Origin: Burkholderiales bacterium
Lineage (GTDB): Bacteria > Pseudomonadota > Gammaproteobacteria > Burkholderiales > WYBJ01
DNA: 64,000 bases
Direction: 5' to 3'
Assembly: GCA_022841915.1 (NCBI GenBank)
Contig: JALHQN010000002.1
Location: forward strand, 186,001-250,000
The stretch's first letter is position 1, and each line of letters opens with the position of its first letter. A program made the position numbers and the translations under genes. Below the pieces are notes generated by a model. The model saw only the letters and a list, made by a program, of their open reading frames with translations. It had not been told where the DNA came from and ran no database searches. Below are positions 12,392 through 44,784 of the stretch, piece after piece.

Positions 12392-12460
12392 TCGCTTGGA
12401 CGACGACCTGCCGTCCTAGAATCCCGGCCAAGGCATGTCCGAGCACTGCATGGCGGGAAG

Positions 12461-12469
12461 TTATGCACA
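12461..12469 (+). promoter_or_regulatory. DnaA-box-like 9-mer
   Basis: TTATGCACA has one mismatch from TTATCCACA. It is followed by a GC-rich stretch and then the AT-rich part of the hemE-priA gap. Confidence 0.5.
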
Positions 12470-12635
12470 GGACGCGCTCGCCTCATTTTGTATACGATAC
12501 CTATAAGCGTTTCTCGCCAATACTCTGCAAAGCATTGAAATAAATATATGTTTGCCTCTTGAATTTCGACATTGGCTTGACGATGTGCCATAGCACACCC
12601 CCATGCCTTCGGCGCTAGGGAAACCATCAACAGTT

Positions 12636-12644
12636 TTATCCACA
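12636..12644 (+). promoter_or_regulatory. Consensus DnaA box
   Basis: An exact TTATCCACA 68 bases upstream of the priA start, at the edge of the AT-rich part of the gap. Confidence 0.6.
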
Positions 12645-12711
12645 GGTCCGAGGTCTTTCCCGCCGTGACGCCCCCGGCTTCGCTCGGGGACTTTCGGCCA
12701 TTCCGCGCACC

Positions 12712-38968: not shown

Positions 38969-38998
38969 CGCGTCACTCCGTTAATTAAAAAGCCTCGT

Positions 38999-39092: not shown

Positions 39093-39106
39093 TGTGGATA
39101 ACCACA
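39093..39106. promoter_or_regulatory. DnaA box in inverted repeat upstream of dnaA
   Basis: TGTGGATAA (39093-39101) is an exact DnaA box on the minus strand. It is part of a symmetrical TGTGG-ATAA-CCACA element (39093-39106). It ends 12 bases before the candidate dnaA -10, over the -35 region, suggesting that DnaA controls its own gene. Confidence 0.75.
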
Positions 39107-39118
39107 GGTGAAAAGCGA

Positions 39119-39124
39119 TAGAAT
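39119..39124 (+). promoter_or_regulatory. Candidate dnaA -10 element
   Basis: TAGAAT 64 bases before the dnaA ATG, with the DnaA-box inverted repeat over the -35 position. No good -35 hexamer is visible. Confidence 0.4.
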
Positions 39125-39188: not shown

Positions 39189-40538
39189 ATGAGCAGCTTC
39201 TGGCGTTCCTGCCTCGAATATTTTCAGCGCGAACTGACGCCGCAGGAATTTTCCGCCTGGATCAAGCCTATTCGCTTTACCCGAACCGAAGAATCGGTTC
39301 TTCTGGAAGTACCCAATAGACTGGCATTGCGCTGGATCAAGGACACCTACCTGAGCCGGATCCAGCTGCTCGCCGACGAGCATTTCTCCACGCCCACGAC
39401 AATATCGGTGAACTTACTCCCCCGGCCTGTAGAGAGCGTCCCTACGCCGGCTCCTGCCGAACCTGCGACCCCTCGAGTTGTGTCGCCGTCGATGCAGGCG
39501 CAGTCAGCAGCGAGTGATGCGTCCCGGCTCAACCCCGCCTACACATTCGAAACTTTCGTGACGGGTCGCGCAAATCAGCTCGCGCGCGCGGCAGCGATTC
39601 AGGTCGCGGACAGTCCCGCCACCTCGTACAACCCGCTTTTCATATACGGCGGCGTCGGCCTGGGCAAGACGCACTTGCTCCATGCTGTCGGCAACCTCGT
39701 GAGGGAACGCACACCGAACGCCAAGATCCGCTATCTGCATGCCGAGCAGTATGTTTCCGACCTCGTCCGTGCTGTGCAACACCGATCGTTCGACCAGTTC
39801 AAGCGCTATTACCAATCACTCGATTTGCTGCTCATCGACGACATACAGTTCTTCGCCGATAAGAACCGAACTCAGGAAGAATTCTTTTACACTTTCAACG
39901 CCCTCCTCGAATCCCGGCGTCAAATCGTGATCACATGCGACTCCTTTCCAAAAGAGATCGCCGGGATGGAAGACCGCCTGAAGACTCGCTTCGGCTGGGG
40001 CCTCACGGTCTCTGTGGAGCCACCCGACCTCGAAATGCGGGTGGCCATTCTGCTGAAGAAGGCCGAACTCGAGAACGTCATTCTCGACCAGCCCGTGGCC
40101 TTCTTCATTGCTCAGCAAGTGCCCTCCAACGTTCGTGAACTCGAAGGGGCATTGAAGCGCGTACTGGCGTTCTGCCGGTTCTCCGGTCAACCGTTGCGCA
40201 TCGATACCTGCAAAGAAGCACTGCGCGATCTCATTGCTGTCCAGAGTCGCCAAGTAACCATCGACAATATCCAACGCACCGTTGCCGAGTACTACAAGAT
40301 CAAGGTCTCAGAAATGTACTCGAAGAAACGCAGTCGCCTGATCGCACGTCCGCGCCAGATTGCAATGGCGCTCGCCAAGGAACTCACACCTTTGAGCTTG
40401 CCCGACATTGGCGAGGCGTTCGGCGGCAGAGACCATACGACTGTACTTCACGCTTGCCGCAAAGTGGCTGAGTTGCGGACGACCAATTCAGACATTACGC
40501 GCGATTTCAACTCGCTTCTGCAAGTGTTGAGAAACTGA
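39189..40538 (+). CDS. dnaA: Chromosomal replication initiator DnaA
   Basis: AAA+ initiator that binds DnaA boxes and melts oriC. The 449-residue protein has domain I (about 1-80, SSFWRSCLEYFQRELTPQEF), a short Pro/Ala-rich linker (about 80-112), the AAA+ domain with Walker A GGVGLGKT at 154-161 and Walker B LLLIDDIQFF (about 213-222), and domain IV with the box-binding signature GRDHTTVLHACRKV near 412-425. I chose the ATG at 39189 because it yields the family N-terminus; an in-frame start at 39108 would add a 27-residue extension lying across the candidate promoter. Confidence 0.98.
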   Translation: MSSFWRSCLEYFQRELTPQEFSAWIKPIRFTRTEESVLLEVPNRLALRWIKDTYLSRIQLLADEHFSTPTTISVNLLPRPVESVPTPAPAEPATPRVVSPSMQAQSAASDASRLNPAYTFETFVTGRANQLARAAAIQVADSPATSYNPLFIYGGVGLGKTHLLHAVGNLVRERTPNAKIRYLHAEQYVSDLVRAVQHRSFDQFKRYYQSLDLLLIDDIQFFADKNRTQEEFFYTFNALLESRRQIVITCDSFPKEIAGMEDRLKTRFGWGLTVSVEPPDLEMRVAILLKKAELENVILDQPVAFFIAQQVPSNVRELEGALKRVLAFCRFSGQPLRIDTCKEALRDLIAVQSRQVTIDNIQRTVAEYYKIKVSEMYSKKRSRLIARPRQIAMALAKELTPLSLPDIGEAFGGRDHTTVLHACRKVAELRTTNSDITRDFNSLLQVLRN

Positions 40539-40557
40539 TGACAGCTTGGGTACAAAG

Positions 40558-40566
40558 TGTGGATAA
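40558..40566 (-). promoter_or_regulatory. Consensus DnaA box downstream of dnaA
   Basis: An exact TTATCCACA read on the minus strand, 20 bases after the dnaA stop. Confidence 0.75.
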
Positions 40567-40703
40567 GCCGGGCGTTTCCTTCATCGCAACATTTCATACA
40601 GAATTCATGCACAGGCCATACACGTATTCTCCCGCACTGGCAGAGGGGATTTTTTCCCTACGTTTGAATCGCTTGGCCAGTTATCCCAAATTTTCAGCGA
40701 TGC

Positions 40704-40718
40704 CTACCACTACTACTA
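40704..40718. promoter_or_regulatory. DnaA-trio-like repeat
   Basis: Five consecutive triplets CTA-CCA-CTA-CTA-CTA on the plus strand. The complementary strand reads 3'-GAT-GGT-GAT-GAT-GAT-5', the form and polarity of DnaA-trio elements (3'-[G/A]AT-5' repeats) with the DnaA boxes on the correct side. Confidence 0.5.
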
Positions 40719-40731
40719 TTTCGGATAAGAA

Positions 40732-41838
40732 ATGAAGTTATTGGAATGCTCGCGCGACGAACTGTTGGCCCCTCTTCAAACCGTAAGCGGTATCGTCGAA
40801 CGTCGCCATACGCTGCCAATCCTGTCCAACGTTCTGCTCGAAAAAGGGAATGACGGATTGACGCTGCTGGCTACCGACCTAGAGATTCAGATCTGTAGCA
40901 GATCCCAGATCAGTTCCGGATCGGACACCACCACGATAACGACCTCCGCACGCAAGCTCCAAGACATCCTGCGCGCGTTGCCCGCAGATGCGAAAGTCAG
41001 TATCGAGAGCAACGCCAATCGACTTCAACTCAAGTCAGGGCGCAGCCGGTTTACCCTCCAGGCATTGCCGCCCGAAGATTTTCCCCGACTGGCCGCCGGC
41101 GCCGAAGTGGTCGATGAAGTGACCTTGACCCAAAAGGCGCTTCGTTCATTGCTGCTGCTCGTGCAGTACTCGATGGCCCAGCAGGACATCCGTTACTACC
41201 TCAACGGCTTGTTGCTCTGCCTGGAAGAACGGGAACTACGTGTGGTTGCAACAGACGGCCATCGCCTGGCGTTTGCCAAAACATCCCTGGATGAAGATCA
41301 TTCTCGCCAGGAAGTCGTTCTGCCGCGCAAGGCCGTGCTAGAGCTTTGCAAATTGCTCCAAGACACCGACGACCCGATCCGCATCGGGCTTCTCGGCAAT
41401 CAGGTGAGGTTCAATTTCGGTTCAGTCGAGCTGGTCACGAAGATCGTCGACGGCAAGTTCCCCGACTACGGCCGAGTGATTCCAACGGGACACCAGAACC
41501 TGATTACGGTCGAGCGCACTGCGTTGCTCCAGGCTTTGCAACGAACAGCGATTCTTTCCAACGACAAGTTTCGCGGGGTACGTTGGGTTCTCACCGAAAA
41601 CAGCCTTCGAGTTTCGTGCACCAATACCGAGCAAGAAGAGGCGCAGGAAGAACTGGAACTTCAGTACTCCGGACCTGCCATCGACATCGGTTTCAATGTC
41701 AATTACCTACTTGACGTCCTCAATGCATTGGCCGGGACACATGTCCGCTGTGCTTTCGGCGATGCAAGCAGCAGTGTCTTGATGACGGATCCGACGCTCG
41801 AGAACTTCAAGTACGTCATTATGCCGATGCGCATCTAA
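40732..41838 (+). CDS. dnaN: DNA polymerase III beta sliding clamp
   Basis: Ring-shaped processivity clamp that tethers polymerases and other partners to DNA. The 368-residue protein has three similar clamp domains (about 1-120, 128-245 and 248-368) and starts with MKLLECSRDELLAPLQTVSG. Conserved partner-pocket elements are the central TDGHRLAF and the C-terminal YVIMPMRI, ending in the usual MPMR-hydrophobic motif. It follows dnaA by 193 bases containing the candidate origin, and gyrB begins 18 bases after its stop. Confidence 0.98.
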   Translation: MKLLECSRDELLAPLQTVSGIVERRHTLPILSNVLLEKGNDGLTLLATDLEIQICSRSQISSGSDTTTITTSARKLQDILRALPADAKVSIESNANRLQLKSGRSRFTLQALPPEDFPRLAAGAEVVDEVTLTQKALRSLLLLVQYSMAQQDIRYYLNGLLLCLEERELRVVATDGHRLAFAKTSLDEDHSRQEVVLPRKAVLELCKLLQDTDDPIRIGLLGNQVRFNFGSVELVTKIVDGKFPDYGRVIPTGHQNLITVERTALLQALQRTAILSNDKFRGVRWVLTENSLRVSCTNTEQEEAQEELELQYSGPAIDIGFNVNYLLDVLNALAGTHVRCAFGDASSSVLMTDPTLENFKYVIMPMRI

Positions 41839-44316: not shown

Positions 44317-44784
44317 ATGAAAAGCCGTAACGTTCCCACTTCGGGCCCCCGTTTTGTTCGTCGCCGTTCACCGATCCATGGTTATGGTCTGTTCGCCAGA
44401 CGCCCGATTCCGAAAGGCACCCGCCTGATGGAGTATGTCGGCGAACTGATCAATGCCGACCAAGCCGAAGGTCGCTACCCCGAGGTCGATATCCCGCCCC
44501 ATACGTTTCTTTTCGACGCCGAAGATGACATGTACATCGATGGCGGCGTCGGAGGAAATTCATCGCGGTTCGTCAACCATTCCTGCAAGCCGAACTGCGA
44601 GGCTGTGCAGGATGGAAAGCGGATCTTCGTCGAAACGATCCGAGCGATCCGGCCGGGCGAGGAATTGTTCTACGACTACTGCATCACGCTCGACGAGCCC
44701 CACAATGCGGCTGCCAAGAAAAAGTGGATCTGCAAGTGTGGCGCCCCGAACTGTCGGGGACATATGCTGGGCAAGAAGCGTTGA
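44317..44784 (+). CDS. SET-domain protein-lysine methyltransferase
   Basis: The 155-residue protein is almost entirely a SET domain, the fold of SAM-dependent protein-lysine methyltransferases. Visible motifs are SPIHGYGLFARRPIPKGT (about 18-35, SAM binding), SSRFVNHSCKPNCEA (82-96, with NHSC 87-90), GEELFYDY (114-121, catalytic Tyr) and a post-SET zinc segment with Cys139, Cys141 and Cys146 (CKCGAPNCRG). The organisation is complete, so an active enzyme is likely. Its substrate is unknown. It lies 33 bases after gyrB on the same strand and converges on topB with a 3-base gap; no histone-like gene is nearby. Confidence 0.93.
   Translation: MKSRNVPTSGPRFVRRRSPIHGYGLFARRPIPKGTRLMEYVGELINADQAEGRYPEVDIPPHTFLFDAEDDMYIDGGVGGNSSRFVNHSCKPNCEAVQDGKRIFVETIRAIRPGEELFYDYCITLDEPHNAAAKKKWICKCGAPNCRGHMLGKKR

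Follow-up and report, generated by a model that had tools for sequence, protein, structure and literature searches.

The closest described counterpart of the locus analyzed here is the basal unwinding system (BUS) of Bacillus subtilis, which lies in the same gene gap, arranges DnaA box, spacer and triplets in the same order and polarity, starts with a proximal trio of 3′-GAT-5′ and possesses extra distal boxes (PMC6669920, PMC8287927, PMC10721633). In a survey of 2070 origins, BUS elements were predicted for 85%, and the survey tree marks all five proteobacterial classes (PMC8287927); since these predictions span the proteobacterial classes, the presence of such an element in betaproteobacteria is to be expected. 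The published rule demands at least three consecutive central-adenine (NAN) trios starting no more than 16 bases from the box, and paired boxes accompany the trios in 57% of the published cases (PMC8287927). Pelliciari et al. require the central adenine and themselves suspected that there are exceptions (PMC8287927).

In B. subtilis, a central G in the trio impairs both unwinding and growth, and residues Glu183 and Asn187 of DnaA make contact with its middle base (PMC10721633). Whether DnaA homologues recognize other sequences is a question that the authors of the BUS structure did not settle (PMC10721633). An origin is opened only by its own DnaA; for the B. subtilis oriC, melting is noted to be species-specific (PMC13220808). 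TAG triplet repeats like those described below are also found in oriC of Thermotoga maritima, where DnaA binds them as a single strand (PMC10316083). This system differs in that DnaA on a box array captures the strand, the annotated trio beside the box being only supportive (PMC10316083).

Here, we describe the dnaA-dnaN gap in a betaproteobacterial lineage whose family, among the relatives searched, consists of four genomes of a single genus. The window analyzed comprises 64,000 bases (C2:186001-250000) of a 6.2-Mb draft assembly in 66 contigs. Taken together, our comparisons make it highly likely that this gap is an origin and a variant of the DnaA-trio BUS. Its triplets, which the initiator-specific motif would read, appear to covary with DnaA residues 183 and 187 and, less clearly, 193.

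Results

The dnaA-dnaN gap is very probably the chromosome origin

The genes mnmE, yidC, rnpA, dnaA, dnaN and gyrB follow each other in this order, as checked with NCBIfam. Between dnaA, the replication initiator (39189-40538, plus strand; TIGR00362, 571 bits), and dnaN, the sliding clamp (40732-41838, plus strand; TIGR00663, 318 bits), lies a gap of 193 bp (40539-40731). Just 3′ of gyrB, an ORF at 44317-44784 resembles, by eye and from its translation, a small SET-domain protein.

The first-pass annotation had read this gap as a probable oriC with a DnaA-trio and had proposed GC skew as a check. Computed on the window's 482,546-base contig alone, the genome being a draft, the cumulative skew reaches a single clear minimum, at window position 41721, 1 kb from the gap. 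The curve slopes in opposite directions on either side, the skew over 200 kb being -0.018 to the left and +0.024 to the right, which speaks in favor of oriC. Stability calculations point to the same place: the weakest 30-bp duplex of the entire window is found at 40711-40740 and the weakest 190-bp duplex at 40551-40741, nearly all of it inside the gap. With the conserved module described below, skew and duplex stability lend good support to the original reading, and the gap is very probably the chromosome oriC.

Because a skew minimum cannot resolve sites 1.6 kb apart, we also considered that the functional origin might be the rpmH-dnaA gap, with the dnaA-dnaN gap holding regulatory boxes only. 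The upstream gap does contain an exact DnaA box (39093-39101, minus strand) and a weak duplex at 38980. Nevertheless, we regard this as very unlikely: there is typically one box upstream, it overlaps the -35 hexamer of the dnaA promoter at 39095-39124, the sole one predicted, one congener lacks it, and boxes average 2.2 per dnaA-dnaN gap versus 0.9 upstream. Since the upstream box overlaps the -35 hexamer and persists in most relatives that have lost the box-bearing gap, as autoregulation predicts, it probably serves dnaA autoregulation rather than unwinding.

Elsewhere in the window, the hemE-priA intergenic region (12392-12711; gene names from by-eye reading of the translations) carries TTATGCACA at 12461-12469 and TTATCCACA at 12636-12644, 175 bp apart; for lengths of 60 and 100 bp, the least stable duplexes in the window sit between them. 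This pair is kept in all four congeners, and two plus-strand boxes 162 to 187 bp apart precede priA in 15 of 30 loci examined, the genus included; the second of these boxes is usually preceded at 12 bp by a weaker one. We rejected the pair as the main origin, there being no skew turn at this place and, by eye, no triplet run; it is a candidate for an accessory DnaA locus (datA- or DARS-like) or for priA regulation. Outside the window, 133 kb to the left of oriC, the densest DnaA-box cluster on the contig has four boxes (at most one mismatch) in about 200 bp (C2:92867-93068).

Architecture of the box-plus-triplet module

The distal part of the gap holds an exact DnaA box, TTATCCACA, on the minus strand (40558-40566), whose sequence and distance from dnaN (-174) are invariant in the four congeners. 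It is followed by three weak, co-oriented DnaA-box-like repeats on the plus strand, TCATACAGA, TCATGCACA and CCATACACG (40594-40624), which lie 11 bp apart and are kept in the genus alignment. That is, CATNCA recurs at 40595, 40606 and 40617 with an exact 11-bp period, and the middle copy, TCATGCACA (40605-40613), shows two mismatches to TTATCCACA. Closest to the triplets is a further weak plus-strand box, TTATCCCAA (40681-40689), likewise with two mismatches to TTATCCACA. Many relatives have TTATCCACA itself where the window has the weak TTATCCCAA, and in two of the four congeners this proximal box is unrecognizable by consensus. A spacer of 14 bases (40690-40703; usual length in relatives, 13 to 14) separates it from the triplets; here, the four-mismatch 9-mer TTTTCAGCG is, by eye, the sole candidate for a tandem box beside the trios.

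The DnaA-trio run itself spans 40704-40718 and reads CTA CCA CTA CTA CTA on the top strand, corresponding to 5′-TAG TAG TAG TGG TAG-3′ on the trio (minus) strand. One trio of the five thus has a central G, owing to the CCA at the second top-strand triplet. The first-pass annotation had listed one exact and two weak boxes and five CTA/CCA triplets 14 bases past the proximal box and 13 before the ATG, and had claimed that polarity and side agree with B. subtilis. All of these coordinates held, with the exact box on the minus and the weak ones on the plus strand, and box, spacer and triplets do match the B. subtilis polarity. Directly observed here are the location of the module with its polarity, spacing and conservation, the GC skew and the low duplex stability.

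The run exceeds chance expectation: only 0.06% of dinucleotide shuffles equal the gap in their best triplet score. Five consecutive CYA triplets occur a single time in the 6.2-Mb assembly, and a box (at most two mismatches) with a 9- to 16-base spacer and five YYA triplets is found once on both strands of 482 kb, this hit being the gap module.

Compared with described BUS elements, the module shares the location at a probable origin, a trio-facing box that deviates from consensus at no more than two positions, a spacer below the 16-base limit, conservation at the same place in relatives, and a DnaA with initiator-specific motif and arginine finger, including equivalents of K222, E228, R264 and V190 (B. 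subtilis numbering). It lacks three consecutive central-adenine trios within 16 bases of the box, and so the published rule misses it: the CCA interrupts the run, and three canonical trios begin only 20 bases past the box (plus strand). The rule likewise fails in three of the four genus members. With its weak proximal box and CCA as second triplet, the module is, judging by its layout, an off-consensus BUS.

The triplets follow the origin rather than dnaN

Across the genus, the alignment keeps TGTGGATAAG, ATTCA..CACA, TT.TCCC and GCCTAC.A.TAC.AC.A, while intervening sequence diverges. The phased boxes and every third A of the run are retained, with the middle base alternating between T and C in three of the five triplets. 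Conservation in relatives had been suggested as a further check, and boxes and triplets are indeed kept in three congeners and in most betaproteobacterial gaps. In 84 of the 123 relatives whose gap measures 150 bp or more (or is of undetermined length), a box with at most two mismatches stands 35 to 95 bases before dnaN, commonly followed after 13 to 14 bases by YTA-rich triplets. A box, spacer and three YTA triplets are present in 12.2% of gaps versus 0.04% of shuffles; for the published BUS rule, the figures are 53% and 10%.

Many relatives (for example, L122, L125, L135, L136 and L182) show a one-base slip within the run at the same place, CTATTA-N-CTACTA, which is puzzling because B. subtilis assays suggest that register matters.

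Given that the run ends 13 bases 5′ of the dnaN ATG, it might be a feature of the dnaN leader, connected with ribosome binding or a leader peptide, instead of an origin element; a small ORF, MPTTTTISDKK (40700-40735), even overlaps the dnaN start with its stop (ATGA). We consider this very unlikely. The congeners do not keep the run in one reading frame with respect to the ATG (13 versus 14 bases), the run commonly stands 13 to 14 bases past a DnaA box, and modules of box plus triplets also occur away from dnaN in family f7. A leader peptide encoded by the triplets was rejected, its reading frame not being conserved in congeners, and the ORF is probably a coincidence. In 17 relatives with gaps below 150 bp (loci L041, L049, L055, L059, L070, L079, L081, L087, L088, L089, L133, L134, L156, L169, L172, L175 and L187), dnaN is never preceded by a run of at least three triplets, and in 16 of them the gap is free of boxes. 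Their origin probably lies elsewhere. As the run vanishes with the box-bearing gap while dnaN is kept, it appears to follow the origin rather than dnaN. The initial proposal that unwinding is coupled to dnaN expression is therefore unsupported, even if the run does lie in the dnaN leader.

The family f7 loci (L197-L203; genomes G009, G057, G353, G238, G208, G326 and G177) carry, away from dnaA, a cluster of DnaA boxes with box-plus-triplet modules in at least two copies, 0.4 to 0.9 kb apart. In G057, the module locus is 346 kb from dnaA-dnaN, and the noisy, sampled GC skew changes direction at the module locus, near 1.80-1.86 Mb, and not at dnaN (2.20 Mb).

Non-canonical triplets recur in the order

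A middle-blind pattern search in 399 genomes of the order, with the listed matches hand-selected for a box-like start, returned modules whose central top-strand base was T in 144, C in 31, A in 22 and G in 3 cases, part of the A counts being TAA at the first triplet. Central-C triplets also occur in several other families. By this tally, non-canonical triplets are recurrent in the order, the CCA of the window being one case.

As for the cause of the CCA triplets, we rejected V193 and R196 of the window genus, since genus g125 of family f10 has both and shows CTA runs without CCA. Nor does residue 183 explain the tolerance of CCA. Three members of the window genus with at least three YTA units belong to the E183/YTA class introduced below, and the fourth, L034, falls short of three because of its CCA triplets; CCA tolerance is thus not accounted for by residue 183. 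With E183 and mixed CTA/CCA triplets, the genus would nonetheless represent the E183/YTA class.

Covariation of triplet class with residues of the DnaA initiator-specific motif

Residue numbers refer to a B. subtilis DnaA sequence whose residues at the cited positions agree with PMC10721633. Aligned to it and to 129 relatives, the window DnaA has E183, S187, L189, V190, V193 and R196 in the motif spanning positions 183 to 196 (codons at 39744-39785, plus strand).

In about 190 relatives, the class of triplet covaries with this motif. Counting clear runs, that is, three or more units (a strict table from which many gaps without a run of three are excluded), E183 goes with YTA in 42 of 42 cases, A183 with TCA in 9 of 9, and Q183/D187/I193 with CAA in 5 of 5. 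Three TCA runs accompany N183/N187 and three CAA runs N183/Q187/I193; S183 has five YTA and one TCA, and single runs belong to K183 (CAA), H183 (TCA) and T183 (YTA). Register is ambiguous in the TCA and CAA runs, and with runs of two included there are six exceptions to E183. TCA runs without E183 were noticed first, and genomes were then added from the families that had suggested the pattern (f10, f2 and f9), such that the hypothesis arose from a portion of the data and the additions come from the same families. With near-duplicates of earlier loci removed, they contributed 13 E183/YTA and 7 A or N183/TCA cases and no exception.

By normalized mutual information, column 183 ranks first among 440 DnaA columns, and six of the top ten columns fall within the motif (hypergeometric P = 7e-6; the P values of the table ignore kinship). 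A DnaA tree that leaves out the motif implies five changes of triplet class, three of them exactly on a branch where residue 183 changes and four within one branch of it. In family f10, an S183/YTA clade is nested among A183/TCA lineages. Triplets and residues 183 and 187, less clearly 193, thus appear to change together in the order.

Could the association reflect shared ancestry rather than recognition? The tree holds only five triplet-class changes, many DnaA changes fall on long branches such as that of family f9, and in the number of same-branch changes column 183 is equalled by columns 321 and 266. Against this, four of the six best low-change columns (180, 183, 186 and 187) are in the trio-contacting motif, the nested f10 clade breaks with its A183/TCA surroundings, the non-duplicate added genomes fit (13/0 and 0/7), and Glu183 and Asn187 touch the middle base in B. 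subtilis (PMC10721633). Shared ancestry remains in our view a serious but somewhat doubtful explanation. We lean, with modest confidence, toward recognition, in which the betaproteobacterial trio would have switched between YTA, TCA and CAA several times along with residues 183 and 187, sometimes 193, forming a replaceable recognition code between initiator and origin.

A loose pattern for TCA-type modules is matched in 40 of 369 genomes of the wider class, with no full TTATCCACA start among the matches listed. Judged by eye on their box starts, these look like chance matches.

Discussion

The module of the window is, as far as comparison of sequences can tell, a known type of unwinding system in a form particular to its lineage. 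Different from B. subtilis, its proximal box is weak and without a clear tandem partner, one of its five trios has a central G, and residue 187 of its DnaA is Ser instead of Asn. With other betaproteobacterial BUS elements it shares position, a spacer of 13 to 14 bases and triplets before the dnaN start; many of these have a stronger box and TTA/CTA runs, and in some lineages TCA or CAA runs go along with changed residues in the DnaA motif.

From this arrangement, we infer DnaA binding, oligomer growth and strand opening at the gap. DnaA on the exact box and the 11-bp-phased weak boxes would raise the local DnaA concentration, and a molecule on the weak proximal box TTATCCCAA could seed an oligomer growing rightwards. 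The oligomer, reading the triplets through the initiator-specific motif, would capture the minus-strand triplets at 40704-40718, and their capture would open the weakest duplex of the region, adjoining the dnaN start.

The element itself is a variant of a known system, and the part that would be new to specialists is the covariation: the literature searched, some of it accessible in part, yielded no prior account of trio-DnaA co-evolution. As to whether DnaA homologues recognize other sequences, the comparison offers natural candidates, namely, homologues with other target sequences and trios without a central adenine. It also points to the residues that are probably responsible and provides matched pairs within family f10, A183/TCA versus S183 or E183/YTA.
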